64,000 bases of DNA from Branchiostoma floridae (taxonomy: Eukaryota > Chordata > Leptocardii > Amphioxiformes > Branchiostomatidae). The DNA lies in the NCBI RefSeq assembly GCF_000003815.2, contig NC_049983.1:16876907-16940906 (forward strand), written 5' to 3'. Made by a program: the position numbers and the translations under genes. The notes under the pieces were generated by a model. It made no database searches, was not told where the DNA came from, and saw nothing but the letters and a program-made list of their open reading frames with translations. Positions 15,914 to 60,600 of the stretch are shown here, in pieces (within the stretch, counting starts at the first letter, position 1; the number at the start of each line of letters is the position of its first letter).

Positions 15914-18900
15914 TTAGCTTGCTCGAGTAGCCACAGATTCCTTTGACACTGCTACCTCCTCGTTTGTTTTCTGTTCCACCGTTGTTGTTGTCCCTTTTGA
16001 TTGTTCCTCCGTGCCCTTATCATTTTCCTCGTCCTTATCAAAGGGGTACAACTCGGGGTACTTAGACATACACTCCTGCATGTTCCGGAACTCTTCGATG
16101 CAGTCCGAGCCCTTGGGTTCGGCAGGGCTGTAGTGGAAACAGGAGAAGGCCTCCTTGAAGGGTTCCCCACAGGGTCCGCTGGCCATGCCACCCAGACATG
16201 GGCACTGCCAGTTGATCTCTCCGTTGGGCAGGATCAGGCCTGGCAAAGAGAGGAGAAAAGCAAGACCTATCTGTCACTCAAAAATTACGGCAATAGAATG
16301 TCCAGAACTTGGATCAGGCCTGTCAAAAAGAGCATAAAAGGAAGAGCTATCTACCAATCAGAAATCACGGCCATAGCATGTCCCAAACACAAGATATCAA
16401 AATCTGGAAGTTCTGCTGCAGTACTATAACAAGCTGGTCTGTAATCTAATTGTTTCATCAAATATCAAGACAATCTATCCAGGTCTTCTTGAGTTATGCT
16501 GTTCATCCACATCATCATCGGTTGATGTGCTTACACACGACGGGGTTATACTCTTTTGAATAGCTGAATACAAGACGAAGATGCGCCAGGCCTCCCGTCC
16601 GGGTGAATGGTTAATCATCGTATGGCTGATACGAGACTGTTAATCCACAAAAAAAATGCGAAAAACGTAACTTTATTGGTAATGGTATTAAAATAAAGAT
16701 TTGACTAAAATGTCACTACAGTGGGTATAGGGATAAAGTATTCAAGCTGTTTCTGGCTTTACAACTCATTCATTAATATACGTTACATGTATATAAGCTT
16801 CCTACCTGGAGCATCATCATCTTCCTCAGCATTGTAAGTGATGTCAGCTGTGGAGGGGGTCTCATGGTCCTCCTTGGTGACAAAAATTATCTTGTCCTTT
16901 CCTGGAAGAGAACAGAAGAAAATGTCAGTTAGCTTGCAATACATTAATATACTAGGTGCATCATTGTTTCATACATCATACATGTATACGTCCACATTTC
17001 ACATTGCTTAAAAGTGAGTTAAAAAAGACATATTATTTTTTGTATGTCTCAGCTTTGCAAATTAGATTTTGACAAGTTTGAGGTCTTCAGACAAGTATTG
17101 GAAATTCAGTATGGTGTATTTTTTTGGACAAGAACTTAATATGACGATTAGAGGTGAAACTGAAAGGAGATTTTGCAGTGTTTTATTTATACCATTGGAA
17201 CAACTCTGTATTAGAGTATTAAATGGAAACGCTAATTCCCAGTATAATCATTCTGTAGTGACCTGTCTGGGCAAGAACTTCCGTGCGGTAAGCTATCTAC
17301 CAAAACTGCAAAGATAAAGCTGCTGCAGACATTTCAATACAGTTGCCAAAGTTTGGATTGCCAAGCCATGCATTTCTATGGAGCTGACAGGGCAGTAACC
17401 TTTTCTCCAATGCGTCACAATAATGTGTATGATTGCTTAACCTTCTTTTTAACTTCAGGCTTAGTGCGAATGATTTATATGTTGAATCAGTAGGCATTAA
17501 CGTGCACTTAGATAGGTCACTTTGTGGCTTTACCGCATTATATGATGGACAAAGAAAAAGTCAGACAGCAAATCTACACTACTTAGGGCCCCACTCATAA
17601 TTCTATAGACCACATACGCCACCTGTGCCTTGGTTGGGCAGACGACAATGCAAATGTTACTCAAATATAAATGCTTTTTTTAATCCTTAGAAAAGGTTTT
17701 GTAAATGCCAAAGCAATAAAGATTCACTCTGACTTTCTATATATCAGGTAGCCACTTTGATAGGTTAGAAAATGTGGGGGTGTAGAGTGTTTTGGTTTGT
17801 AGCCATGGCAACTTATAAAAACATGTGGATATGGAATAGAGCAAAAGCACTTTGTGCAATAACAAAAAATTCAAATTGAAAAGTCAGGTGCCACAGTAGT
17901 TGCCTTCATGCAGAGATTGTGGAATTCAGCAAGTAGTTCTGTTAAGAATGTCAGCAAAACAGGGAGAAGAAAAAGCATTATTATACAGTAGAAAAATTGG
18001 TGTGAGTCACTTTATGTCAACAAGCAAAATCACAACACAGCTTGGAGCTTTGAAAAATTATAAAAAAAATCTATAGCTAAAATCAAAATCTTAAAGTTAA
18101 ACAAGTCATAAATAAGGTTTCATCATTTTATTCTGACACTCACAGTCACATGTCAAGAATAGCCTGTGTTGTGTATACTAGAATACAACCATGCATACAA
18201 AAGCATATCTCTACACTGCGGGCCTACACCAATATCTAGGTGTACCAGGTGTACTTTCTCGTGAACACCTCCAATTTTCTATCTACCGTACAGAAGTGCA
18301 CATGCACTCAGCATTCCTTGCCCAGAAACAGTTTGGAGAGAGTCCACATGAATACATCAAACCAGCACTCCCATATATGATGTACATGTATTGAAGCATA
18401 CATGACTCAGCATATTATATACTAATATAGAGCATGGTGAGAAATGCCCTCCAAGCAGATGTGGGGTGGAATATCATAAATTATGATATTCCAGGATCTT
18501 CAAGATGGCAGCGTNNNNNNNNNNNNNNNNNNNNNNNNNNNNNNNNNNNNNNNNNNNNNNNNNNNNNNNNNNNNNNNNNNNNNNNNNNNNNNNNNNNNNN
18601 NNNNNNNNNNNNNNNNNNNNNNNNNNNNNNNNNNNNNNNNNNNNNGCTGCCATCTTGAAGATCCTGCTTTGTCATATGACCCTGACATTGGTTGGCAGGT
18701 TTTAAAAGGAAGTCTGAATTTTTCATACATTATGCATTAGCATTCTGTAGAAATTGAGAGGGGCGAGTAAGAACAGAAAGAAACAAACATGCCAACACCC
18801 GGGATCGAACCCGGGGCAGCGGATAACAAATTGTGACCGCTATCGCTGTCGCCACAAAAGCTCTAGAGCCCTTGGGCAAGGACGGCAGGCGGTATTTGAA

Positions 18901-19517
18901 CACCACTGTTACACTACTCCCCCTTTTCTTTTCAAGATTCGTCCTCGAATCTCTGAGATTGATATCCCTGTGTGGCACATCTTAGCCTGTTTACTCACAG
19001 TGTGGCACATCCGCTAGTGTGGGAACCATTGTAGAAATTGAGAGGGGCGTCGCGAGTAAGAGCAGAAAGAAACAAACATGCCAACACCTGGGATCGAACC
19101 CGGGGCGGTGGATTACAAATCATGACCACTATCGCTGTTGCCACAAAAGCTTTAGAGCCCTTGGGCAAGGACGGTAGGCAGTATTTGAACGCCACTGCTA
19201 CAATTCTTATGCAATTCTATAAGATATCTGTGTATGCAAACTTGTAATATATCATATCAAGGAGGTTGCCTCTTTTCAACCTCCTATGTCTACAATCAGT
19301 CAGTCATACTTCAAGACCACTACCTGACCTGACAAACTCTATGAGTTCTCTATGAAACATCTTAAGTTTAGATATTAAATTGCAAAACAGTGATGAAACT
19401 TGCTAGATGAGGGAGGGGGGCAGCTACTGGCAGTAAAATGATTTTGACCAACAGAGCGTTACAGAGCGATAAGAACAATTCTAGTGTTTCTTTACCTTCT
19501 TCCCTGCAGTAAGACAT
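15914..19517 (-). CDS. CHCHD4: CHCHD4/MIA40 mitochondrial intermembrane-space oxidoreductase
   Basis: Three exons read on the minus strand: 19517-19496, 16901-16806 and 16239-15914, giving 147 residues ending in TAA. The start is [20 protein letters not shown]. The redox-active CPC motif (Cys52-Pro-Cys54) lies in [18 protein letters not shown], followed by twin CX9C motifs (Cys63/Cys73 and Cys86/Cys96) that form the CHCH fold. The acidic C-terminal tail is low-complexity and variable. The protein oxidises small cysteine-rich proteins during import, with ALR/GFER as electron acceptor (family knowledge). Length and motif spacing match the human protein almost exactly. Both introns are GT-AG. 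The ATG lies 92 bases from the left arm of a large inverted repeat containing a CCAAT box, probably part of its promoter. Confidence 0.96.
18493..18665. mobile_element. Palindromic element interrupted by an assembly gap
   Basis: AGGATCTTCAAGATGGCAGC at 18493 is followed after 131 N by its perfect reverse complement ending at 18665. This is the expected appearance of a long hairpin or foldback MITE that the assembler could not close. It lies in CHCHD4 intron 1. Confidence 0.65.
18515..18645. other. Assembly gap (131 N)
   Basis: A run of N. The two flanks are reverse complements, so a hairpin probably caused the gap. Confidence 0.99.
18741..18912 (-). repeat. tRNA-derived SINE-like copy 1
   Basis: On the minus strand this contains a canonical RNA polymerase III B-box, GGTTCGATCCC, inside a T-arm-like stem, with an A-box-like TGGCGACAGCGATAG upstream. 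It is closely matched by the copy at 19030-19205, including flanking TTGAGAGGGGCG and GCAAGGACGG segments. It looks like a tRNA-derived retroposon rather than a functional tRNA, because the cloverleaf is incomplete. Confidence 0.6.
19030..19205 (-). repeat. tRNA-derived SINE-like copy 2
   Basis: A second copy in the same orientation, about 115 bp from copy 1 and within CHCHD4 intron 1. The B-box GGTTCGATCCC is intact and the A-box region reads TGGCAACAGCGATAG. Both copies begin at GTAGAAATTGAGAGGGGCG on the plus strand, so this may be a tandem duplication rather than two insertions. Confidence 0.6.
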
Positions 19518-19609
19518 GATCCCAGCTCAGTCTGTTTTACTTTGAGGAAATTGCACAAAACTGTAAAACTAATAACCAGAAAATATATTCACACTACTGA
19601 GGTATTATG

Positions 19610-19965
19610 GCCTCCGTTTAACGGCGACGCGCACACAATAAGCGCCACGCTACTATTGGTCAATCCCATCGGTGAGGATAGTTTCGTCGACGGCAGTACA
19701 GCAGTTCCGCCATGCTGTTGGCTTACAATATCATAATTCAACATTTGAGCGCATAAAACACGGCCTTTTAGAGCATACTCATGCTATGTAAGCCCTTAAA
19801 CAGGTAGGTCCTTTTCTATATGATTCTAAGAAACATAAGTAATCGGAATTGACCCGAGTTTATGGTTCAAAACAGTAACTTTGTTACGCATATTTATCCC
19901 GGAAGCAAGTCGCTTCCTTGCCCCTAGTTAGTCCCTCATTCATCGGTTAAATTTTAGCTCTCTGG
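19610..19965 (+). repeat. Left outer arm of an 11.3-kb inverted repeat
   Basis: This segment, starting GCCTCCGTTTAACGG, matches the reverse complement of 30520-30874 over about 350 bases with only scattered differences. It contains ATTGGTCAAT (a CCAAT box facing CHCHD4) and a GGCGGAACTG segment. Its outer end is 92 bases from the CHCHD4 start codon, so it probably includes the CHCHD4 promoter. Its inner end runs directly into the 51-bp repeat array. Confidence 0.85.
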
Positions 19966-20699
19966 AGACCAGATAACACACCTTACAGGTAATATTTGCG
20001 TGGCTCTTAGCTCTTGGGACCAGGTAACACACCTTACAGGTAATATTTGCGTGGCTCTTAGCTCTTGGGACCTGGTAACACACCTTACAGGTAATATTTG
20101 CGTGGCTCTTAGCTCTGGGGACCTGGTAACGCACCTTACAGTTTATATTTGTGTGGCTCTTAGCTCTGGGGACCAGGTAACACACCTTACAGGTAATATT
20201 TGTGTGGCTCTTAGCTCTGTGGACCAGGTAACACACCGTACAGGTAATATTTGCATGGCTCTAAGCTCTGGGGACCAGGTAACACACCGTACAGGTAATA
20301 TTTGTGTGGCTCTTAGCTCTGGGGACCAGGTAACACACCCTACAGGTAATATTTGTGTGGCTCTTAGCTCTTGGGACCAGGTAACACACCTTACAGGTAA
20401 TATTTGCGTGGCTCTTAGCTCTGAGGACCAGGTAACATACCTTACAAGTAATATTTGCGTGGCTCTTAGCTCTGGGGACCTGGTAACGCACCTTACAGGT
20501 TATATTTGTGTGGCTCTTAGCTCTGGGGACCAGGTAACACACCTTACAGGTAATATTTGTGTGGCTCTTAGCTCTGGGGACCAGGTAACACACCGTACAG
20601 GTAATATTTGTGTGGCTCTTAGCTCTTGGGACCAGGTAACACACCGTACAGGTAATATTTGTGTGGCTCTTAGGTCTGGGAACCTGGTTACCCACCTTA

Positions 20700-21028
20700 G
20701 GCCACACCAATTTAATTTCTTGGTTCACGGATTCGCTCGCTCCTATGTTTGGGAAATAAAATTAAAAATTACCACTCAGCAAANNNNNNNNNNNNNNNNN
20801 NNNNNNNNNNNNNNNNNNNNNNNNNNNNNNNNNNNNNNNNNNNNNNNNNNNNNNNNNNNNNNNNNNNNNNNNNNNNNNNNNNNNNNNNNNNNNNNNNNNN
20901 NNNNNNNNNNNNNNNNGTTACCTTTACCCCAACCATTTTACAATTTTTTTTTAAATTTTTATTTCGCCCTCTCGCTCCATATTTTTTATGAAAAACTCCG
21001 TGAACCACGAAATTAAATTGGTGTGGCC
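20700..21028. mobile_element. PIF/Harbinger-type MITE with TTA target duplication, inside the minisatellite
   Basis: The termini GGCCACACCAATTTAATTTC and the inverse at 21009-21028 are near-perfect. The element is flanked by TTA at 20697-20699 and 21029-21031. A 3-bp TWA target duplication with GGC ends fits PIF/Harbinger. It contains a 133-N gap (20784-20916). A gap-free sister copy lies at 58557-58922. It splits the 51-bp array, so it inserted after the array formed. Confidence 0.85.
20784..20916. other. Assembly gap (133 N)
   Basis: A run of N inside the MITE. The sister copy at 58557 indicates what kind of sequence is missing. Confidence 0.99.
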
Positions 21029-21240
21029 TTACAGGTAATATTTTTGTGTCTATTATCTCTAGGGACTAGATAAGGCACCTTACAGGTAATATCTTTGTGG
21101 CTTCTAGCTCTGGGTACCAGGGAACACAATTCTGCATTCACAGTACATTCAAATAATTGTTTTGTTGCTTGTTTACACTGTACATGTTTAGCTGGAGGCA
21201 CGTTCTGTAGCCAGATGCTTCTTATTAAATCTAAGGAGAG

Positions 21241-21798
21241 CATGCCCGTAGCCAGGGGGGGTTCGGGGGGTTCGGAAGAACCCCCCCCACACGCTCAAAA
21301 GGTCCACTTTTTCAGACTTGAAGGTCCACTTTTTCATGTCCAAGATTTTTTTTCAAAGGCATGACTTATTTGCATTTTTCCCTTATAGACATTTCAGTCA
21401 ATCTTAGTGAGTCTATCAGCAAAATTTGCCCCAGAAAGTGCGGAAAATGGCTTTTCAGAGGGTCCAGATTTCAAAATTTCCCCGGACCTCCATTGCGACC
21501 CCTCGCGCCTTTGGTGTCGGACATGGTGAAAATATGTCGAGGGAGTTGGCCTCAAAGACTTACGCAAAAGCCTTGTCCTTTAATAGAAATTCCATTAAAC
21601 TTCGCAAGCGATTTTTGCCCGTCAAAATGCAGGAAATGACGTTTCAGAGGGTCAAACTTTCAATTTTTCCGGGGGAGCATGCCCCCGGACCCCCCTAGGC
21701 AGCTCACGCCTTCGGCGTGAGTCTCGCGCCTGCGGCGCTCGATGGTCCCACAATTACTAAAAAGAACCCCCCCAACCAAAATCCTGGCTACGGGCATG
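21241..21798. mobile_element. TIR element with exact 6-bp target duplication
   Basis: Perfect 16-bp inverted termini CATGCCCGTAGCCAGG and CCTGGCTACGGGCATG are flanked by GGAGAG on both sides (21235-21240 and 21799-21804). The interior holds repeated CAGAGGGTC phrases and C-rich runs but no transposase domain. Six-base duplications are reported for Polintons and Dada elements among others, so the superfamily is unresolved. Confidence 0.85.
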
Positions 21799-22830
21799 GG
21801 AGAGTAAGCTATTTTACATTTCTCTAGCAGCACAGACCCACTGGTCAGACCACTGGAACAAGATTGATGACCAATACATGTTCTATATCTTGTCTTGCCT
21901 GTGTGATTAGAATTTTTGTACATTGTTTCAGATGGAGATTGTCACTAAGAAAATGAAGAGTCATCAGGGAAGGCTTGCCACAGACCCACACTGATGTAGA
22001 CTTGAGTCAACCAGGCGAACTGAGTTGCATTTGCTTATGAGGTAACAAGGACACAGAAAACATATTCTTAACAAAAGATACACGAACTAAGATCTTGGAA
22101 CAAAGTCAAGGATAGGTTCCACTTCTCGCTTCTTGCAGGTATGAATGTATGGAAAGGATGGAGCTTATATTACATTGTTTGTCTAATTGCGTATTTAAAG
22201 TAACATAATTTTTCCTGTGCTATGTTGATATTAGAAGATATGGAACATATATTGTATGCAATTGAGGCTATTTATCTTTGTTGTATAATACCGTCTGCAA
22301 CAATATGACATCCATCTTCATTCTTATTTAGATCACAATTTTTACAACTTCTTGGCTGCACAGGAGTCTGTAATGTGCACCTTTTAGTTTTTAGACATTG
22401 ATTTTTTGTGAAGTATCTGGAGATTTGTGATGGATTTTCTATGTCATGTTATATATTTATTATTTTGTGCACAATTCTCCTAGCCTAGGTCGTACTCTGT
22501 ATGTTTGTAATTTGTTGCACATGACAATGACAATGTGAGACATTTGGCTACTGTTATGTGAAATGATAATATCCAAAGTGTACATGTAAATATGTTCAGG
22601 TTGACTTCTTTTCTGTTAGCAGTGGAAAAGGAAGGGTCCAACGTATCATGTAATGAGTAGGTTCTTTGATGTTGAGAGGTGTTAATATTTTCCAACAGTG
22701 AACATGACAACATTGTTATGGTATTTGGTGACAATATTTAGTTTGAATAGCTCAATTCTTACATGATGTTTTTGTAAAAAAAACACGAAAGTTTTTGCAA
22801 AGAACTTAGAAGACGATACGAAATGTCTTT
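21799..22830. other. AT-rich sequence without recognisable genes
   Basis: I see no coding exon and no repeat with clear ends here. It forms part of the core between the two inverted arms. Confidence 0.5.
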
Positions 22831-23486
22831 NNNNNNNNNNNNNNNNNNNNNNNNNNNNNNNNNNNNNNNNNNNNNNNNNNNNNNNNNNNNNNNNNNNNNN
22901 NNNNNNNNNNNNNNNNNNNNNNNNNNNNNNNNNNNNNNNNNNNNNNNNNNNNNNNNNNNNNNNNNNNNNNNNNNNNNNNNNNNNNNNNNNNNNNNNNNNN
23001 NNNNNNNNNNNNNNNNNNNNNNNNNNNNNNNNNNNNNNNNNNNNNNNNNNNNNNNNNNNNNNNNNNNNNNNNNNNNNNNNNNNNNNNNNNNNNNNNNNNN
23101 NNNNNNNNNNNNNNNNNNNNNNNNNNNNNNNNNNNNNNNNNNNNNNNNNNNNNNNNNNNNNNNNNNNNNNNNNNNNNNNNNNNNNNNNNNNNNNNNNNNN
23201 NNNNNNNNNNNNNNNNNNNNNNNNNNNNNNNNNNNNNNNNNNNNNNNNNNNNNNNNNNNNNNNNNNNNNNNNNNNNNNNNNNNNNNNNNNNNNNNNNNNN
23301 NNNNNNNNNNNNNNNNNNNNNNNNNNNNNNNNNNNNNNNNNNNNNNNNNNNNNNNNNNNNNNNNNNNNNNNNNNNNNNNNNNNNNNNNNNNNNNNNNNNN
23401 NNNNNNNNNNNNNNNNNNNNNNNNNNNNNNNNNNNNNNNNNNNNNNNNNNNNNNNNNNNNNNNNNNNNNNNNNNNNNNNNNNNNNN
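22831..23486. other. Assembly gap (656 N)
   Basis: A run of N directly before the 146-bp satellite. The true array is therefore probably longer than what is visible. Confidence 0.99.
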
Positions 23487-24835
23487 AAAAATGCTCTTTT
23501 TGCCTCAGAAGAGCAAATTAAGATTTTTTGACCAAAAAAATGCATATTGGATGTCAAAAAATTATTCCACACCCAATAAAGTTGGTTTGAACAAAATCGG
23601 ACATTGTTTCGCGATATCATTTTTTTATGCGAAAAAATGCCCTTTTTGCCTCAGAAGAGCAAATTGAGATTTTTTGACCAAAAAGTTGCATATTGGATGT
23701 GAAAAAATTATTCCGCACCCAATAAAGTTGGTTTGAACAAAATCGGACATTGTTTTGCGATATCATTTTTTTATGCGAAAAAATGCTCTTTTTGCCTCAG
23801 AAGAGCAAATTGAGATTTTTTGACCAAAAAGTTGCATATTGGATGTGAAAAAATTATTCCGCACCCAATAAAGTTGGTTTGAACAAAGTCGGACATTGTT
23901 TCGCGATATCATCTTTTTATGCGAAAAAATGCTCTTTTTGCCTCAGAAGAGCAAATTGAGATTTTTTTACCAAAAAATTGCATATTTGATGTGAAAAAAT
24001 TATTCCGCACCCAATAAAGTTGGTTTGAACAAAATCAGACATTGTTTCGCGATATCATTTTTTTATGCGAAAAAATGCTCTTTTTGCCTCAGAAGAGCAA
24101 ATTGAGATTTTTTGACCAAAAAGTTGCATATTGGATGTGAAAAAATTATTCCGCACCCAATAAAGTTGGTTTGAACAAAATCGGACATTGTTTCGCGATA
24201 TCATTTTTTTATGCGAAAAAATGCTCTTTTTGCCTCAGAAGAGCAAATTGAGATTTTTTGACCAAAAAGTTGCATATTGGATGTGAAAAAATTATTCCGC
24301 ACCCAATAAAGTTGGTTTGAACAAAATCGGACATTGTTTCGCGATATCATTTTTTTATGCGAAAAAATGCTCTTTTTGCCTCAGAAGAGCAAATTGAGAT
24401 TTTTTGACCAAAAAGTTGCATATTGGATGTGAAAAAATTATTCCGCACCCAATAAAGTTGGTTTGAACAAAATCAGACATTGTTTCGCGATATCATTTTT
24501 TTATGCGAAAAAATGCTCTTTTTGCCTCAGAAGAGCAAATTGAGATTTTTTGACCAAAAAGTTGCATATTGGATGTGAAAAAATTATTCCGCACCCAATA
24601 AAGTTGGTTTGAACAAAATCGGACATTGTTTCGCGATATCATTTTTTTATGCGAAAAAATGCTCTTTTTGCCAAAGACGAGCAAATTGAAATTTTTTTAC
24701 CAAAAAATTGCATATTTGATGTCAAAAAATCATTCCACACCCAATAAAGTTGGTTGAACAAAATTGGATATCGTTTCGCGATATCTTTTTTCTGCAAAAA
24801 AATGCTCTTTTTGCCTCAGAAGAGCAAATCAGAGC
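23487..24835. repeat. 146-bp satellite array, at least nine copies
   Basis: The phrase TGCTCTTTTTGCCTCAGAAG begins a unit repeated with a period of exactly 146 bases (GCTC at 23493, 23639, 23785, 23931, 24077, 24223, 24369, 24515, 24661) and a last spacing of 143 to 24804. Most copies are nearly identical; the last two are more diverged. The unit is AT-rich with poly-A/T blocks. The period equals nucleosome-core DNA length. Reading frames crossing it are fortuitous. Confidence 0.95.
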
Positions 24836-25120
24836 GATCACTCAAGACCAGGGTCCTTGAGCACAGACCCCCGAGTTCAACAACCTCAGAAGTTTCCCAA
24901 CATATTCATATAGAATCGCCTGGTCATTCGGTCTCAAAGGACAAAGTTAAAATCTTGGACATAGAGCCTGACTATTTTGCTAGAGGGATCAAAAAAGCCA
25001 TCTACATCAGAGCTTTACAACCATCCCTATTTAAAACAGAGACATAGCCTTCCTGCAACCTATGATCTGAGCTTGCTGAGTCACGCGTTCTATTCAGTAT
25101 TTGCTAAAGATGACGTCACG
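24830..25120 (+). pseudogene. Fragment of a Penelope-like retroelement, GIY-YIG C-terminal region
   Basis: Translation gives SLKTRVLEHR, then SEVSQHI, VKILDIEP and IKKAIYIRALQPSL. A frame change follows before LPATYDLSLLSHAF. This order (RxxEH, an S-H pair, VKILxxE, IKEAIYIR, P-L, L-x-YD-x-LL) matches the end of Penelope-like polymerases with a GIY-YIG endonuclease as I know them. The start of the domain is lost and the frame is broken, so this is a relic. It abuts the last unit of the 146-bp satellite. Confidence 0.6.
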
Positions 25121-27479
25121 ACAGCAGTGGATTGTTCATCTCTTGACAAAGACTGGTGCTGTTCAGTCGAAAATTTGGATGAGGCCAATTTTTGTGTTGG
25201 ATATTACAGTTAGAATAGTTCAATAATGACTGAACTACCAACGCAGATGAACTTTCAAATTAAAAGAAAAATGCAATTGTGCGTGATGCGCTTCAAATTG
25301 ACCTTGATTTACCCATGCGAAACATGGATGTCACGATGCGGCCACGCGGCGAGCGCGCAACTTTAACATGTTTGTTTTTCACCTTGTTTTTTTTTTCTTC
25401 ATATTTATCACACATATTCATGTGGACTTATGTAGCCTCTCTTTGAAATCCCAATTCGACATGAAACATTCGTTTCCAAGTAACTCTCAGTTAAAGTTTT
25501 GGAGACTTGGCATCTATGATCACCTATTTCTTGCAACTTTACAGTAAATGTTGAAATTTCTACAAATATGAGAGGTACCACATAAAAAGGAACCAGTGAT
25601 ATCACTGAAAGGCCAGTGATGTCACTAAAAGGGTATGTTGTGTGTGGCTCTTATTGCATCTCTTGTAAAGCTTTATTTCGCTGCAGTCAAGCCACCATGA
25701 ATAAATAGTGGTCTTTCGAAAAATACTTGTGCGGGACACTGAATCTTTTGAAGGAAAATTACTATTAAGTGTCGTTTATGTCTCTTCTACAAAACAAAAA
25801 CGGTTTCTCTCAAGTTTGGCTGGCATATCGATGTATATTATCATTATTGTTACATAGATGAATTTAATTGGGGGTAATATTTACTTATTGATATAAAGTA
25901 TCTCCAAGCACATCGACAGCAAGCGCACAGGAAGGAAGTGGAAACGAAAGACTTGACCAAATGGAACATCACGATTAAATTTGGCACTCGTTCTGCTGAT
26001 CACGATCATCATCATTGAACAGGCGGTTTTAGAACTCGTCAAAATACAATGACACACCGCGGCAGGGCAAATCCTGTAGTTCCGCCAGGATATAGAATGT
26101 CGCCATTATATATAACTTGTATGTGTATTCATCAATGCGCACTATGAAGGCTATCTGACAAATGGAATATCAAGATACGTATTTTTGCCAATTGTGCAGA
26201 TAACAATTCATGAATAGTGGGTTTTTAAACGTCGACAAATGACACCGATAAGCGCCACCTGCTGTACAGATATCGCATGAGCTGAATAATGAAGAAAGAT
26301 GAATCGCCTATATCTGCAATTAGATAGACGACAGAGCAAAACCGCTTAAAGTACATATAGATCAGTATATTAGCCTACCGTGGTGAAAATTTCATTGACA
26401 GACACCGATTTTTCCTCGTTTCATGAAGTAAATCGCACTCCCGTCATGCGGGGTTCAAATCGGACTAAAATTGCCTAAGTGGAACATAGCGGTCGGAGTG
26501 CGCTCTCACGTTTTTGCCGACACGTCAGTGGTTTTCATACCTCTCTTAGGGAACGACAGATTTCTACCAAATTTGGTCGGCATATACATGAAAACCTACT
26601 TAGTCGCTGTATGAATTCTCATTTAATCATTTTGATTGGTTATTGAGTTTTGAGCTGTTGACATTTGGAAAATAAAAGTCCAAAGTGGACTTTGTAGCAC
26701 AACTCACGGGTATACCGAGTGTAACCACTCACAAAGGAAAGTGCTGATATCGCCGAAATACCCTTAGCAGAGTTATATAAAAATTTGTGCCTATTTCAGG
26801 TTGGAAATCCCTAACCCGACATCATTTTGTAATGTCGGACTTTCCGGACTTTGGACTTTTGTGAGATCACAAAAACTGACGACTTCGACAGACAAATGGA
26901 CTCGGTATCTTTAAACAATTGCAAAATAACGAAAGAGTAACATTTCTAGCAACACAGATAGCTCAGTATATTAGCCAACCGTTGCCAAAGTATTAAGTGA
27001 AAAATACTACTCGCACTCGTTTGATAGGAAAACCTCGTTTGATAGGACTATACGGCAAATGGGGGTTGGAACGCGAGTTCCGTGATCCGGACGTGAACGT
27101 TTAGAACTTCATCTGCCTCATTAATGTTATGAGAATCGGATTTCTTTCAAATTTGGCTGAAATATTTATAAATGCTTGCAAAGTCGCTGTGCCAATTGCT
27201 ATGCTGAAATCATGGATCATTATCGTGTTACTTGTTACTGGGTAACTTTGTAATCAGTGGTCTCAAACACAAACCCACCTCCGCTGGTTTCCAAAACAGA
27301 GTGCCTACTAAGCCCTATTATTTTGGGTACATAATCCACACACATAAACGCGTACACTTTATTCATACACCTCCACATTATGCTGGATACTACTACTACA
27401 CTTGGGGTGGATATCGCTTCGTCGTACGTGCAACTGCGTGCTGTCTACGTACAAAACGTGGGCGATCCTTTGGGATCTG
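25121..27479. repeat. Old diverged repeats, no gene seen
   Basis: Similar phrases recur at about 25800 (CAAGTTTGGCTGGCATAT), 26568 (CAAATTTGGTCGGCATAT) and 27138 (CAAATTTGGCTGAAATAT). Another pair occurs at about 25960 and 26160 (AAATGGAACATC, AAATGGAATATC). They suggest diverged tandem or dispersed copies of a unit of roughly 0.6-0.8 kb. The boundaries are not clear. Confidence 0.35.
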
Positions 27480-27560
27480 TACGAGGAGTGATCAATAAGT
27501 CCTTGGCCTCACCCAGAAATAATGATGAAAGTTTATTTGCAAGTTCTTGCCCGAGGGCTA
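27480..27560. mobile_element. Possible mariner-type terminal repeat
   Basis: TACGAGGAGTGATCAATAAG at 27480 looks like the terminal repeat of some Tc1/mariner elements, starting at a TA. No partner end and no D,D(E/D) transposase are visible, so this is weak. Confidence 0.3.
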
Positions 27561-27697
27561 ATTGAAACATGAAACATACAGAAAATATAGTAAACATGCA
27601 TAAAATAACTTAAAAACACTTTGGTATAGATAACAATGGTGACAAGTCTAGAAAAGTGACTATTCTATCAATGATATGGACTGCTGAGAGCTACAAT

Positions 27698-28339
27698 CTA
27701 CGCATTTGGGGTTTGATTTCTTTTCAGTGGAAGACGAAGTACCTCACCCTTTTCTATAATGAGTGGGTTATGTGACGTTAACAGCGTTATGGTTTTGTTT
27801 TCGTCAGTAAGCGTTTGGAAATTTTTGTGTTCTGCATGCCTCTTCAAATAACTCCTTTCTTTCCTGGTCATTAGAGAGGCAGTTAGAAATAAAATGTATT
27901 TCGTCTTCCACCGGTTTTGCAATACAATGGTTACATGCTCTTTCGCCCACAGGTAGCTTTTTGTACCGCCCTTTCTCAATTTCAAGGGGGTGGGCGCTAA
28001 TTCTAAGTTTCCCCCTTGTCGATCTGACCACGAATTTATCTAGTAACGTTAAATAAGTTATAATTATCTGGTGTATCATTGAGTATCCCTTCTTTTATAG
28101 TTTCTTAAAAATCTTAACTTACCATTACCTGTAGACAGTCTATGAGAAAATGTCTGGATATATATATCTTTCAACCCTTTTCTTAGCGATGTACATATAT
28201 GCTTGTTGTCTAACCATGAATCCATAGAGTTCCATAAAAAAGAGCAACCAGTATTGTCTAGAATTTCCTTTACGTGTAATAAGCACAACTCATATTTCGA
28301 AGCATAGATGTCAAGTATTAAGTCTTCATGAATGTGCAC
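27698..28339 (-). pseudogene. LINE-type retrotransposon relic, C-terminal region
   Basis: On the minus strand, translations in two frames give SAHPLEIEKGRYKKLPVGER followed by a C-x2-C...H-x4-C zinc knuckle (ACNHC, EDEIHFISNC). A preceding piece is KLRFLRNYKRRD. A further frame continues NKTITLLTSHNPLIIEKG. These are typical of the region after the reverse transcriptase in many invertebrate non-LTR elements. Frame changes near 28079 and 27810 show it is dead. No reverse transcriptase core remains. Confidence 0.6.
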
Positions 28340-28818
28340 CGAAATTCAAATTATTGTGATCATTACTTTTTGTAACGTTAGGTAAGGTAGATGGGGAAAA
28401 CGTGGGCAATTATGCTGCGACCTGAGGTGTGCGGGTCAACTTGCGCTGCTGGAAGTTTGACACCCACTTCTTTCATCATGATCAAACATTTTGACAATGT
28501 CTTTTGTTAATGACAAAGACTTATGGCATAGGGAACTCGACCCACGCGTCTGATCACAATTCATCCTTGTTTTTCTCGCCACTTACCTTCTGATTTGCAA
28601 AAAAACGAATGCCTGGAAAGTAATGACTGCAATGGTTTGAAATTTGGAGGATATTGATAGAAGACTTGATACTACAAAGCTGTGACTCAAAATTTGAGTT
28701 GTGCTTATTATTTCTGGATGAGGCCAAGGACAGAGATCGTACGTACAACGCACTTACCACTTACGCCACCAACGATGCACCCAACCGCTCACGGCCAGGC
28801 GTGGCATGGCCTCTCTGC

Positions 28819-30519
28819 TCTCAGAGCTAAGCGCCACGCAAATATTACTTGTATGGTGTGTTACCTGGTCCCCAGAGCTAAGCGCCACACAAATATTACC
28901 TGTACGGTGTGTTACCTGGTCCCCAGAGCTAAGAGCCACGCAAATATTACCTGTAGGGTGTGTTACCTGGTCCCCAGAGCTAAGAGCCACGCAAATATTA
29001 CCTGTAGGGTGTGTTACCTGGTCCCCAGAGATAAGAGCCACGCAAATATTACCTGTACGGTGTGTTACCTGGTCCCCAGAGCTAAGCGCCACACAAATAT
29101 TACCTGTATGGAGTGTTACCTGATCCCCAGAGCTAAGAGCCACGCAAATATAACCTGTATGGTGTGTTACCTGGTCCCCAGAGCTAAGCGCCACACAAAT
29201 ATTACCTGTATGGTGGGTTACCTGGTCCCCAGAGCTAAGCGCCACACAAATATTACCTGGAGGGTGTGTTACCTGGTCCCCAGAGCTAAGAGCCACGAAA
29301 ATATAACCTGTACGGGGTGTTACCTGGGNNNNNNNNNNNNNNNNNNNNNNNNNNNNNNNNNNNNNNNNNNNNNNNNNNNNNNNNNNNNNNNNNNNNNNNN
29401 NNNNNNNNNNNNNNNNNNNNNNNNNNNNNNNNNNNNNNNNNNNNNNNNNNNNNNNNNNNNNNNNNNNNNNNNNNNNNNNNNNNNNNNNNNNNNNNNNNNN
29501 NNNNNNNNNNNNNNNNNNNNNNNNNNNNNNNNNNNNNNNNNNNNNNNNNNNNNNNNNNNNNNNNNNNNNNNNNNNNNNNNNNNNNNNNNNNNNNNNNNNN
29601 NNNNNNNNNNNNNNNNNNNNNNNNNNNNNNNNNNNNNNNNNNNNNNNNNNNNNNNNNNNNNNNNNNNNNNNNNNNNNNNNNNNNNNNNNNNNNNNNNNNN
29701 NNNNNNNNNNNNNNNNNNNNNNNNNNNNNNNNNNNNNNNNNNNNNNNNNNNNNNNNNNNNNNNNNNNNNNNNNNNNNNNNNNNNNNNNNNNNNNNNNNNN
29801 NNNNNNNNNNNNNNNNNNNNNNNNNNNNNNNNNNNNNNNNNNNNNNNNNNNNNNNNNNNNNNNNNNNNNNNNNNNNNNNNNNNNNNNNNNNNNNNNNNNN
29901 NNNNNNNNNNNNNNNNNNNNNNNNNNNNNNNNNNNNNNNNNNNNNNNNNNNNNNNNNNNNNNNNNNNNNNNNNNNNNNNNNNNNNNNNNNNNNNNNNNNN
30001 NNNNNNNNNNNNNNNNNNNNNNNNNNNNNNNNNNNNNNNNNNNNNNNNNNNCTGTTCCTACTTTCCATCCCACAAATATTGCCTGTAGAGTGTGTTACCT
30101 GGTCCCCAGAGCTAAGAGCCACGCAAATATTACCTGTACGGTGTGTTACCTGGTCCCCAGAGCTAAGCGCCACGCAAATATTACCTGTAAATATTACCTG
30201 TAGGGTGTGTTACCTGGTCCCCAGAGCTAAGCGCCACGCAAATATTCCCTGTATGGTGTGTTACCTGGTCCCCAGAGCTAAGAGCCACGCAAATATTACC
30301 TGTACGGTGTGTTACCTGGTCCCCAGAGCTAAGCGCCACGCAAATATTACCTGTAGGGTGTGTTACCTGGTCCCCAGAGCTAAGCGCCACGCAAATATTA
30401 CCTGTACGGCGTGTTACCTGGTCCCGAGAGCTAAGAGCCACGCAAATATTACCTGTAAGGTGTGTTACCTGGTCACAAGAGCTAAGAGCCACGCAAATAT
30501 TACCTGTATGGTGTGTTAT
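28819..30519 (-). repeat. 51-bp minisatellite array, right arm (inverted)
   Basis: About ten copies of the left-arm unit, reverse-complemented (starting CAGAGCTAAGAGCCACGCAA), run to 29328. After a 723-N gap, about nine more run from 30061 to about 30515. Variation between copies is mostly a few positions (GCGCC versus GAGCC, GTAGGG versus GTACGG). It joins the right outer arm at about 30520. Confidence 0.95.
29329..30051. other. Assembly gap (723 N)
   Basis: A run of N within the right-arm minisatellite. More repeat units, or an insertion, may be missing. Confidence 0.99.
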
Positions 30520-30874
30520 GCGTAAAATTTAATCGATGAATGAGGGACTAACTAGGGGCAAGGAAGCGACAGTCGCTTCCGGGATAAATATGCGTAAGTC
30601 AAACTTTACTGTTTTGAAACATAAACTCGGGTCAATTCCGATTACGTATGTTTCTTAGTATCATATAGAAAATGACCTATCTGTTTAAGGGCTTATATAG
30701 CATGAATATGCTCTAAAAGGCCGTGTTTTATGCGCTCAAATGTTGAATTATGATATTGTAAGCCAACAGCATGGCGGAACTGCTGTACTGCCGTCGACGA
30801 AACTATCCTCACCGATGGGATTGACCAATAGTAGCGTGGCGCTTATTGTGTGCGCGCCGCCGTTAAACGGAGGC
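30520..30874 (-). repeat. Right outer arm of the 11.3-kb inverted repeat
   Basis: Reverse complement of 19610-19965, ending CCGTTAAACGGAGGC. On the plus strand it presents ATTGACCAAT toward the USP44/49 gene in the same relative orientation that the left arm presents it to CHCHD4. No clean target duplication is seen: the left flank is ATTATG and the right flank ACCTAT. Confidence 0.85.
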
Positions 30875-30950
30875 ACCTATAGCTCCACTACTGGCACACA
30901 CATGTTCCTCAAGGTGAACCACTGCGCATGTCAGGACCTGCAGTTTTGTA

Positions 30951-46900: not shown

Positions 46901-49900
46901 AGAGGCACATGAGTAAGCACACAGGTGACCGTAAGTTCATGTGTACGGAGGAAGGGTGTGGCAAGTGTTTCACACGCTCCGAGCACCTCAAGGGTCACAT
47001 GATCACCCACAGCGGCGACCGGCCCTACAAATGCAGCTTCCCAGGTAAAGCTACCCTTTGCCAGGAAGGTTACATTTTCTGTACCTTTTTGTTGCCAACA
47101 TAACTCAAGACGTTCTGTAAGGAGCTTGAAAACAGGTCAAGTTTGATAACAGACCTCCTAGCAGCTTCCTGCAGTACAGCAACTGAATGTCCAGTTTTGA
47201 TATCTCGTGTTTCGGACATGCTTTGGTCATGATGTTTTAGTGTAGCTATTGGAACAGAAAGTTAGTGGTGTACCTTTGAGCCATGTTAACATTTTTCATG
47301 GCACGGCAGGTTGTTTGAAATGTTGAAAGATATTATAATAGGGTAGTTACAATAGTTAGCAATGTTTTTTTTTTCAAAACATCTCTAAATTTTACTGCAG
47401 TCAACAACTTTTTTGCTCGTTATGATTTTATCAATGTCTTAATATTCGTCTTTTTTCACAGATTGTGATGCCAGTTTCTCGGCACGAAGCAGTCTCTACG
47501 TCCACACAAAAAAGCATAACGAAGGCCTGGAGCCGAAACCCCCTACTGTGTACGACTGTCCAGTTGATGGCTGCGACAAAACATATCGAAACAAGAGCAG
47601 TCTCAACTCACATATCCTTAAAATTCATCTTCCAGGTACTAAATAATTTGTTTTGTTTTGTTTCTTTTTTAACTTTGTAAAGGTGTAACACACCAGCTTT
47701 GTACCATCAGTACAAGCTGCATAAGACTGGACCAAAGGTTCGATGCACTCATACTTGGTAGAACTCCTACTCTTTTCGACACGTGTGGTGGGTTCTTAAA
47801 GTAAACATGCCGGAGGAGTTGCTCTCCTCAAACACAATGCAACAAACCTAACCACAAGATCACCTTTTGTCTAAGATGTAAAGAAGAAATAAAATTTCCC
47901 TTTCTTTCTTTTCATAGAGTTTGAGATTAGTGAATTTGTATGTAAGAGGAGTTGATTTTATTTTTTTTCTTCTCAGGTTTTACCCAGGAGGATCTACAGG
48001 GGGTTGACCTGATGGCAGCAGCAGCCTCCCTGAACACCTTGGGTCTGGAAACCCCCGTCACAGCCTCGGCCTCTGTGTCCAGTCTCCCCCTGGCCTCGGC
48101 TGTGGACACCTTCCCAGTCACTGCTGCAGACTCCTTCTCATCTGTTACACAGCCTGGTAGGTGTTTTAGCATACCATGGATCATAAGGTTGTGGGTTTGA
48201 ACCCTGGTCTGGTAGGGATTGCTGACAGCACAATGAGTACATAGAATGCCAAGTCCACTCCACTGAAGAGACTTTTTTTTTTTTCAAAATTTGTGTCAAA
48301 TTTTAAAGTCAAATATGGCACAACAGAAAGTAGATATGCCATGATTTTTAGAGAAAGTATGCTATTTGAATAGCATTGTTGGGTTTCCAAAATTCACACA
48401 TACACATAGTATCCTTGAATGTTTTTTTTATTTATTTTATGTTATTCATCTTTATCCAGGGTTGCCCCCTCAGTGATTATCACTGCTTTGCAGTGGGGCC
48501 CTGCATTACAAAAAATGAAACAAGAACTATGCATATAGTTACATACAAACAGAAAATTGATTTGAAAATGGCATCCCAAAAGAAAAAAAATTAGCCGTTT
48601 CTTGTAGACCCCCACTTCATTGAGTGAAATCTATATTCCCACACTTCTTCCCCCTTCCAGGCACAGCTAAAGCCCCAGACATGAGTTTTGAGGGTCAGGA
48701 GCAGCGTGTGTCAGACCTGATGGTGACCAGTAGTGTGGAGGACCACATCACCCCCAGCTTCCCCACGGAGATCATGTCTAATTTCCACACTTTCTCCTCC
48801 CTACAGGTGCAGCTAAAGCCCCAGACATGAGTTTTGAGGGTCAGGAGCAGTGTGTGTCAGACCTGATGGTGACCAGTAGTGTGGAGGACCACATCACCCC
48901 CAGCTTCCCCACAGAGATCATGTCTAATTTCCACACTTTTCCTTCTAGGTGCAGCTAAAGCCTCAGACATGAGTTTTGAGGGGCAGGAGCAGTGTGTGTC
49001 AGACCTGATGGTGACCAGTAGTGTGGAGGACCACATCACCCCCAGCTTCCCCACAGAGATCATGTCTAATTTCCACACTTTTCCTTCTAGGTGCAGCTAA
49101 AGCCTCAGACATGAGTTTTGAGGGTCAGGAGCAGCGTGTGTCAGACCTGATGGTGACCAGTAGTGTGGAGGACCACATCACCCCCAGCTTCCCCACGGAG
49201 ATCATGTCCCAGCACATGGGCAGCAACGTCGTCACCCAGTTTGTCGTCAACAGTAGTCTCAGCAGTCCGCCACACACCTTCACTGGCGTAACAACAACTC
49301 AGGTACAAGACAAATTGAATCTATGCTGGTGAAACTTAGTAAAACAATGGATTAGTTTCTTCCAACACAAAGGTACACAGGGATCAAATTTTCAATGACC
49401 ACTTTTGGCTTGCCTTCTTCAGGATCAATAATAACTAGCCACTTCAGAGCATAAACTCGCAAGAGTTACAAACGTCTAGTGATGATTATCAATACATGGT
49501 CTTTCATACACACGATGTCAGGAAATGGTCAAACGTGTCAATATCTATTATCTTCTTAATTTTTCGGCATTTAAACAGTTCTGCAGTAGTCATGCAGTGG
49601 AAAGCCTTATTTGCAGTGTCATGATTTCGCAGTCAAGAGGTCTTTGCGAGAAAAAACAATACCTCATTTTTCAAGGAGATAAAATCACCATCAGCATTAA
49701 AAGAGTTACAGTTTCTCATATATCATAACCCAAGCCCTATATATCTGAATCAAAGTTTTTTTTTAAATTGTATATGCTTTTTCTCACTTTTCCATAGGAG
49801 CAGGAGCCCATCCCCATCACACCCACCAGTGATCTGGACGCTGTGTCCATCTTCCAGGAGAACCGCTCGGGTTCTGCCAGGACCGACTTCCGCTTCCGCT

Positions 49901-57600: not shown

Positions 57601-60600
57601 ATGGCAACTCCCTCACACCAGCTGATCTCATGCAGTTGGGAAAAGGACTCTACAAAATCAAGGTGGGCATACTGTTAATGTTATGTACAATGTATGATAA
57701 GTAATGTTGGATTCTTCTAAAACATCTCTGACGATGTATCTGGGTTTCATGACTTTGGCATATCTGTCTAACCTTCAACGACATATCACACCATGTCTTT
57801 TTCACCTTTCAGTTGACAGACAACTCCCTGTCCAAGGTAAAAGAAGCGAGAAAGTTGCTGGAAAATATCTTGACTGAAAACAAAGGTAACTAAATGTCCA
57901 ACTTTACTAGTGTAATGTTTTTTTTCTTAGCGTGATCATATTTGATGTGCATATGTTTAAGGGAATGAATAGTCAATTTATGATTCTAAAAATATATATA
58001 TCATCCCTTGTCTACCTACAGTGTGCTATGGAATTAACACAGGCTTTGGCAAGTTTGCAAGGACAGTCATTCCAGGCAACAAGTTGGTGTAAGTTAAAGG
58101 TTTATTTCTTACTGTTGTTCTTAAAGTATAACATCTGTTGTTTTTTTACCTGTAACATTAAGAGATTATGTCAATCCAGTTTTTTGTCGAGAGGACAGAA
58201 GAAATTTGAGAGCTATGATATGGCTACACACCTTAGGCTACAACGATTGTTTTAGTTGGACAGTATTATTTTTGAATGACAGAAAAGGGGGCATTGTCAG
58301 GAGACAATGGTAGCAAAATTGAAGTACATTAAACACAGTTCAACAAGTATCTGGCATGGGTGCAGAAACACAGCCTTAGGCAGATGTAAATGGTTCATTC
58401 CCCAGGGTCTCTGTTTGATCAATGTTATCTGGCAGTGGAAGTCAACCATCCATGGTCTTTAAATGTTTGTGTAGATAGGAGAAATATATTGGAGCATCCT
58501 CATCTTGAAAATTTTCTAATCTATACCCCTTCAAAACTCTGGTTCTTGCAAATTGAGGCCACAACGATTTAATTTCTTGGTTCACGGATTCGCTCGCTCC
58601 TATTTTTTGGGAAAAAAATAAAAATAAAAATTACCAATCAGCAATTTTTCACCATTAATGAAACCATTCACCAACTTTCTGTTGTAGCAAATTGGCTTTT
58701 ATATTATAAGCTCCTTAAAGTGTGGGTACAGGTGCTGTTACTGTACAAAAATAGTGTTTTTGTACTTTTTTCAGGCTGAAAACTTTTTTTCTTTATGTTT
58801 TGGATTAGCCGTTACCTTTACACCAACCATTTTACAATTTTTATTTTTATTTTTATTTCGCCCTCTCGCTCCATATTTTTTATGAAAAAATCCGTGAACC
58901 AAGAAATTAAATTGGTGTGGCCTGAGGGCCAGATTTTATTAAATAACTGGTTGAAACACAGTTTAGGAGTACAAATCACAGCATAAGGAAACAAATCACA
59001 ACATAGAGGCTCAACTATGCTGGCAAGAACCCTAAATCATCATAGAAAGTCCAAAGAACTTTTTTCACTGTTTATATTTATTTTTTTCAGGGAGCTGCAA
59101 GAAAACCTGATCAGGTCTCACTCTGCAGGTGAACATATCAAATATCAGTTTGATGAAAATGAGTAAAATAAGTCATTCTTTAATACCATTTGAACTTTAA
59201 ATTTACAAATTCATAACATAGATTAATCAACTTGCTTGCTTTACAAGATATATTTTTTCTCCAAATCGACTTTTTATGAAAAGATTTGCGAGAAAAATTC
59301 ATGTCAACCCTAAGATCAATTTTTTTAGGCTAACGGATGATAGCTATAATTGATAGCTGTTTGTTGCATCAGGTGTTGGTCCTCCCCTGACACCAGAGAG
59401 GACCCGTATGCTGTTTGCCTTGAGAATCAACGTCCTCGCCAAGGGCTACAGGTAACAATAGGATAAAGACATATTAGCATGAAAGCTCATCTGTCTTGGT
59501 ATAATCTATATTGTAGTTCTTAACTGTCAGTCAACACAACAAATTGCTCACCTCAAATTCCCGGTCGAACATCTGTCGACCTTCGTCAGGAGTGATGATT
59601 CATTTACTCTGAGCACGTGGCCTAGGGACACGCGACTCAAATAGAGGTGCCTGGCAAGGATAAAGACATCTTAAAGTTATGTCAGATTCTTGGAGAGATA
59701 ACCAAGCTTATGATAATACTATAGCTAGACCTTCACAAATTTCCCTTCAAGTAATTCTGCCTGTGATACCAGTATTTGCCTTGTAGATTCCAAAAACCTA
59801 AATGATGCTTAAGAATGTATAAATAGTATTATACATGTCTTATTCTAGCATTCTGAACTAAGTGTCTAACTGCTATTTTTTTTTCAGTGGTGTTTCTTTC
59901 GAGACTTTGACTCGGATGATCGATGCATTCAATGGTAAGTCATTGCATTAAACATGATAGCTTAAAGGCGCACAATAGCTGAGAGTATTGTTCACATTTA
60001 GATGGATTTTTTTAAATTAAAGATTTATTAAATCATGTCTTATACACTTAATGTACAGTAACTTCAAATACCTTTAAATTTGCATTGATTTAATGTCGCA
60101 GCAGGGGGAAAGTGTGTTTGCAGTGGTTTTAAGTTCACAGTATCGCTATAGTCACATACATTTGTGCAATATAGTAATGGGTGCACTAGTTTTAAGTTTG
60201 CAGTAAAGCAGTCACAGCAACAATGCAAAATGTCAAAAATTACAGCCATCAGTTTAGTTCCGTTGACAGAGTAGCCAATAAACAAGTGTATTGAAAATAC
60301 ATAAAGTACAACCTTGTCTCATGTACATTACCGTAGCGTCCTGTCTGCCATGGATCCCGGAGAAGGGAACTGTCGGCGCTAGCGGAGACCTAGCCCCACT
60401 GTCGCACCTGGCGCAAGGCATGCTGGGAGAAGGCCGCATGTGGTCACCCAAGACTGGCTGGGGAGAAGCCAAGGATGTAAGTTTTTTTTCAGCAATGTCT
60501 CAGAGGCATTAGTTCTTAAGGCTGAATTGGTTAAGGGGTGTGATAGGAAGGGTCATAGGCGTTTTGTTTTTAAACATAGGTGCGGTTGATTTTGCTTTCC

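Follow-up and report, generated by a model that had tools for sequence, protein, structure and literature searches.

Foldback elements, whose inverted ends consist of an outer unique part and inner tandem repeats, are known from flies, midges, sea urchin, nematodes and plants; the FB elements of Drosophila and the TU elements of sea urchin share this architecture. The role of these long repetitive ends has seen few tests. Here, we analyze a stretch of 64,000 nucleotides from the amphioxus Branchiostoma floridae (contig NC_049983.1, positions 16,876,907 to 16,940,906), referred to as the window, in which positions 19599-30885 very probably (at a rough probability of 0.93) represent a single inserted copy from a family of large, non-autonomous DNA transposons of the Foldback type that leave a 7-base-pair (bp) target-site duplication and would be moved by a transposase acting in trans. 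The family is a real, recently mobile Foldback type, and its 12 paired copies in two subfamilies form a young, low-copy and largely intact chordate set.

The closest described systems are known from insects and nematodes, and the comparisons below refer to excerpts of the cited articles. Galileo, a member of the P superfamily in Drosophila, combines long inverted ends containing internal tandem repeats with target-site duplications of 7 bp, rarely 8 bp, and exists as two subfamilies in one genome (PMC4168063), features that the amphioxus family shares. The amphioxus family differs from Galileo by the absence of a P transposase in the scanned frames, by the absence of a GTANTAC target preference, and by a core that is conserved between the subfamilies while the outer arms differ. 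The Galileo transposase carries a THAP domain that binds sites in the repetitive ends (PMC3688188), and Galileo copies have produced inversions in flies by ectopic recombination (PMC2775673), from which we infer that the amphioxus copies are candidates for structural variation. Tetris, a non-autonomous Foldback element of Drosophila virilis, likewise has an outer arm followed by tandem repeats and a link to satellite DNA, whereas its duplications of 8-10 bp, its repeats of ~220 bp and its variable middle (PMC4079207) contrast with the 7 bp, 51 bp and conserved middle found here. The Tm1 elements of root-knot nematodes (Mutator/Foldback) also share composite inverted ends, asymmetric terminal motifs and small forms resembling miniature inverted-repeat transposable elements (MITEs), but commonly have 9-bp duplications and repeats of ~14 bp, and some copies encode a putative transposase (PMC3169594). 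In the open-licence PMC literature, searched partly by title and with Repbase outside the search, we found no account of such a Foldback element in amphioxus; PMC4079207 mentions a sea urchin foldback element, and the excerpt of PMC5802833 describes amphioxus elements without using the word foldback.

Architecture of the element in the window

The element measures 11,287 bp, including 1,512 gap letters, and is organized from each end inward as an outer arm of ~350 bp, an inverted array built from a 51-bp unit, and a core. A sequence-only reading of the window had recognized the inverted outer segments and the inverted arrays inside them, and both hold: positions 19610-20000 align with 30874-30492 reversed at 365 identities over 378 aligned positions, with 18 gap positions. 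The same reading placed the ends at 19610 and 30874, where this alignment begins, but the element reaches 11 bases further out at both sides, to 19599 and 30885. These outermost 11 bases differ between the left end (GAGGTATTATG) and the right end (GAGCTATAGGT), and the same difference recurs in all five young copies of the subfamily to which the window element belongs (subfamily A, below). Where no clean target duplication had been noticed, an exact CACTACT adjoins the left end at 19592-19598 and the right end at 30886-30892 on the forward strand, and the match lengthens to 8 bp when one terminal G is included.

On the forward strand, the left outer arm begins with GAGGTATTATG and occupies 19599-19959, and is followed by the left array at 19960-20699, which has 14.5 copies of the 51-bp unit. 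On the reverse strand, the inner part of the right array lies at 28822-29327, its outer part at 30073-30518 beyond an assembly gap (29329-30051), and the right outer arm, ending with CCTATAGCTC, at 30523-30885. The element contains three assembly gaps (20784-20916, 22831-23486 and 29329-30051) rather than the two previously counted.

Copies in the genome and two subfamilies

The genome search covered 513 Mb in 431 contigs, and all genome-wide match counts are lower bounds. The outer arm gives 15 matches rather than a single occurrence, of which 12 form six inverted pairs on five contigs and three are solitary. These pairs, which define subfamily A, are located in the window and at C4:21.18M, C8:13.40M, C19:7.19M, C5:12.14M (C5b) and C1:11.89M; five of them are near-identical, the C1 pair is older, and a 379-bp arm-only copy (C4b) completes the subfamily. 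A pattern built on the A ends, allowing up to 3 mismatches, occurs at 6 forward and 6 reverse sites; ten of these belong to the five complete pairs, one is the right end of C1 and one an end of C4b, while the control occurs at none in either orientation.

Searching with the 51-bp array yields at least 225 matches and reveals a second set of inverted arrays, subfamily B, comprising six elements of 14.1-17.2 kb (S4, S6a, S6b, S2, S13 and S299). Their outer arm of ~212 bp is unrelated to the A arm, only the first bases being common to both, yet they contain the 51-bp unit and the 146-bp satellite of subfamily A together with a largely collinear core. The B ends are symmetric, whereas the A ends are asymmetric over 11 bp. 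The B end pattern also occurs at 6 forward and 6 reverse sites, all within the six complete pairs (control 0 and 0), and the 13 matches to the B arm comprise the 12 paired arms and one partial match at C2:420513. The twelve A and B pairs are spread over nine contigs.

This distribution bears on the idea that the window structure is a scaffolding artefact in which one arm was joined twice. The gap inside the right array would permit such a misjoin, yet the gap-free copies C4 and C5b of subfamily A and S4 and S6b of subfamily B show the same architecture, and the left and right arms differ consistently in the five young A copies; we therefore consider an artefact almost inconceivable.

Additional loci retain parts of the family. 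At C3:7771001-7780900, a gap-ridden further A copy has core segments 99-100% identical, shows no arms, and contains an internal inverted repeat of 524 bp (98%). The single arm at C2:420 kb is a hybrid, B-like over B positions 17-127 (85%) and then A-like over A positions 93-399 (77%). A degenerate locus on C15 carries related core segments at 73-88% identity.

Target-site duplications and insertion

Duplications were counted in the 13 copies with both ends readable (the 12 pairs and C4b). An exact 7-bp duplication lies outside the GAG termini in 11 of the 13, S13 has 8 bp, and S299 has none; among the 12 pairs alone, 11 are duplicated (ten with 7 bp, one with 8 bp). Besides CACTACT in the window, the young A copies are flanked by TTGTGAG (C4), GTTTTGA (C8), AAATGTC (C19) and GGTATTT (C5b), the older and arm-only A copies by GTCTTAT (C1) and ACCAACC (C4b), and the B copies by TTCCACT (S6a), CACTGAC (S2), CAGTGTG (S4) and CGCGTGA (S6b). 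Two random positions share a 7-mer in only 71 of 500,000 draws. The terminal sequence is GAG[G/C]TA at all ends except one end of C1, which reads GAGGAA. Since several copies match over 1-2 further bases when the terminal G or C is counted, a true duplication length of 8 cannot be excluded in some of them. Four further loci lacking two recognizable ends, F3 (core C3:7776229-7778901), C3 (C3:24.51M), C2 (C2:420 kb) and S15, were kept outside the count, and a looser scan of them for GAGGTA ends separated by 3 kb or more and flanked by a 7-bp duplication finds none. Among 11 sites, no palindromic target motif is found, including the GTANTAC of Galileo.

These duplications decide against a single segmental inverted duplication that received later insertions and never moved, an alternative that the sequence-only reading had kept beside a Foldback or Galileo-like one. 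Within the window itself a single pair is visible, and assembly gaps lie both in its repeats and next to them; across the genome, however, twelve inverted pairs stand at unrelated sites, six in each subfamily, and 11 of the 12 have target duplications. Multiple independent pairs of this kind were what had been proposed as the mark of a mobile family, and we regard a segmental duplication as highly improbable.

According to the preferred reading, a Foldback-type insertion, a transposase supplied in trans would recognize ends starting with GAG (mostly GAG[G/C]TA) and move the whole unit of 8-17 kb, comprising arms, 51-bp arrays and satellite-bearing core, probably by cut-and-paste, and insertion would leave the 7-bp duplication; the arrays may serve as binding sites. 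Some observations weigh against it. S299 has no duplication, although its contig stops 7 bases past the element, and no transposase appears in the ten of 36 frames scanned against Pfam, in agreement with what had been seen from the window alone.

Conservation of the core and movement as a unit

Rather than being an accidental pile of insertions, the core consists mostly of sequence that travels with the element. Long core stretches are common to the five young A copies at 97.5-99.7% identity and are largely collinear, except that C8 is internally rearranged and C19 is missing one part. Pairwise core differences amount to 0.2-2.0% within subfamily A (three segments, one of them compared in four of the five copies, as C19 has no match there) and to 0.5-2.2% within subfamily B (six copies, a segment of up to 2.4 kb), and because core segments within a subfamily differ by only 0.2-2.2%, the movement is recent. 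Sequenced amphioxus species have a heterozygosity of 3.2-4.2% according to the excerpt of PMC12500494; if this value applies here, the copies are closer to each other than typical alleles, and the insertions may be polymorphic. In a tree of the arms, all five right arms group together in one clade (support 100/99) to the exclusion of the five left arms, so that the unit moved whole, from one ancestor whose arms already differed. In three of the six subfamily B elements, the left and right arms agree at all 212 bases; in S299 they show 3 differences, while over the first 178 bases they show 1 difference in S6a and 9 in S2.

From left to right on the forward strand, the interior of the window element begins with a nested GGCCACACC...GGTGTGGCC element at 20700-21028, which has a TTA duplication and encloses the gap 20784-20916, followed by a remnant of the left array at 21032-21128. 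The nested element has a further copy at window 58556-58927 and has counterparts at the corresponding position of C4, C8, C19 and C5b. A 558-bp insertion at 21241-21798 (CATGCCCGTAGCC...GGCTACGGGCATG), with its own 6-bp duplication GGAGAG, is absent from these four copies, which have the empty site. The segment 21799-22830 is conserved at 99.2-99.7% identity to the same four. The 146-bp satellite array (9.2 copies) lies at 23487-24829, and the remaining core extends over 24830-28821, including a dispersed repeat at approximately 27529-28285; this last part belongs to stretches with 97.5-98.0% identity to C4 and C5b, and in part to C8 and C19 (98.4-98.5%). Array and satellite matches were excluded from these lists of matches between the window element and its copies. 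The satellite and one inverted-end element had already been recognized in the core, which in fact holds two elements with inverted ends besides the satellite and the dispersed repeat. As the nested GGCCACACC element and the satellite are present in other young A copies, both predate the spread of these copies.

Between the subfamilies, common core segments are mostly 80-90% identical (extremes 74 and 93%) and largely in the same order. Against full collinearity, the GGCCACACC sequence of subfamily B lies elsewhere and is inverted, one short segment is displaced, and S4 is rearranged. The C1 pair carries related segments as well, its core being mostly 82-86% identical. The satellite has matches in all 12 paired elements; it is also found at numerous further loci (at least 285 matches genome-wide; 40 of 139 candidates were scored), so it is not restricted to these elements, and sharing of the satellite would by itself be no proof that the two subfamilies have a common ancestor. 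Small satellite arrays also occur outside these elements, for example at C1:31.98M, C14:21.56M and C13:1.05-1.25M, and may mark relatives with other arms. A conserved middle with replaced outer arms is unusual for a Foldback type.

The 51-bp unit and the terminal motif

At one fixed position of the 51-bp unit, TAGCTC or TACCTC is found in 574 of 662 units from five groups (A 138/152, B 353/412, C1 57/62, C3 10/17 and C15 16/19). Read on the opposite strand, this hexamer gives the terminal GAG[C/G]TA, and the base that varies is the same in both. Ranked by mean column conservation, TAGCTC comes first among the hexamers of the unit; ranked by whole-hexamer retention, it is seventh of 46, and the motif arises in 4.8% of shuffled 51-bp units, figures that apply to a resemblance between unit and end noticed post hoc. 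Special conservation of the AGGTAA copies in the unit was also considered and failed, one copy scoring lower than the remainder of the unit and another slightly higher. The reading frames of the arrays stay open since 51 is a multiple of three, which carries no information on coding.

The arm-only copy C4b (C4:1764114-1764492, 379 bp) extends from GAGGTA to TACCTC within its own 7-bp duplication, and alignment places its second end on the TAGCTC at the junction of arm and array in five A copies and C1. An internal unit may have been used as an end, or a deletion may have joined two sites at a short similarity. Because most units carry the terminal motif and C4b ended at the first unit of the left array, it is conceivable, though we hold it to be doubtful, that the 51-bp arrays consist of cryptic transposon ends repeated in tandem, which would allow the exchange of outer-arm cassettes around a persisting satellite-bearing core. 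A conserved middle with exchanged arms would be the reverse of Tetris, whose middle varies. The copies provide a set in which repeats as transposase-binding sites can be tested against repeats as alternative ends, together with arm replacement and promoter aiming.

Transposase search and superfamily membership

In parts of three elements, 36 frames outside the arrays reach 85 amino acids or more, and the ten scanned against Pfam comprise one nested reverse transcriptase, two other B frames and seven A frames. The only match above the curated cut-off is RVT_1 in the nested long interspersed nuclear element (LINE), while Peptidase_M50, C2orf69 and MLVIN_C match below the threshold; the copies look non-autonomous.

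The P-type RNase-H domain has three matches in the genome. One P-like element, at C19:10308832-10317273, is bounded by perfect 31-bp ends, is flanked by the 7-bp repeat CTCTAAC, and contains a long open frame (713 amino acids in the piece read); a second P-like locus lies at C11:17076605. As a partner of the Foldback family the C19 element was rejected, its ends, the only ones of a P-like element that were read, beginning with CAAGGAG and not with GAGGTA. That the family forms a Galileo-like branch within the P superfamily, with an amphioxus P-type transposase moving it, is a tentative proposal that we place somewhat short of even odds. It is in line with duplications of 7 and occasionally 8 bp, as in Galileo (PMC4168063), the 7-bp form occurring in 11 of 13 copies, and with the 7-bp repeat that likewise flanks the sole P-like element examined. 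Set against it are the different start of the 31-bp end of that element, the absence of a palindromic target motif at the 11 sites, and the finding that a tblastn comparison of two P-like frames with the 12 paired elements gave no match at E 1; across the ten frames, the two P-like exons and the ends of one element, neither an internal P-type transposase nor matching ends were found.

A relationship to Mutator-like elements (MULEs), as proposed for Tm1 and Tetris, seems less probable. Tm1 has short asymmetric end motifs outside its inverted repeat (PMC3169594), comparable to the A ends, and the MULE domain has 27 matches in the genome; the authors of PMC6446971, in the excerpt considered, could not detect the MULE transposases reported for B. 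floridae. MULE duplications measure 8-11 bp (PMC6446971), however, whereas only one of the 13 copies here has 8 bp, and the B ends are symmetric. Six of the matched MULE loci, which at ~3.3 kb are too short to exclude a relationship, have no GAG[G/C]TA ends with a matching duplication. The superfamily is open, and although P membership is unproven, it is favoured by the duplication length, not by the end sequence.

Insertion-site context

The hexamer ATGGCG, which forms part of YY1-like motifs around gene starts, is found no further than 50 bp from the insertion point at 5 of 11 sites (C4b and S299 were left out). Its density per kb is 4.55 in the first 50 bp, 0 between 50 and 100 bp, 1.21 between 100 and 250 bp and 0.19-0.24 at greater distances, compared with 0.21 in the window outside the element. 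Among 120 hexamer permutations it ranks first (5 sites, followed by GGGTCA with 4), and among all hexamers AAATGG occurs at 6 sites and AAAATG at 5. ATGGCG occurs in 0.5% (left) or 2.3% (right) of random 100-bp stretches drawn from the window, and the binomial chance of at least 5 of 11 at 2% is ~1.3e-6, a value to be read with a motif noticed by eye and counted afterwards and a background taken from one region. The observed/expected CpG ratio exceeds the 0.56 of the window in 19 of 22 flanks. As a lead and not a result, these features suggest insertion near promoters.

Immediately left of the element, the window contains a direct repeat of ~170 bp (18746-18913 and 19030-19202, 89% identity), and a 142-bp tandem repeat with 3.9 copies and 95% matches is present at 48653-49208.

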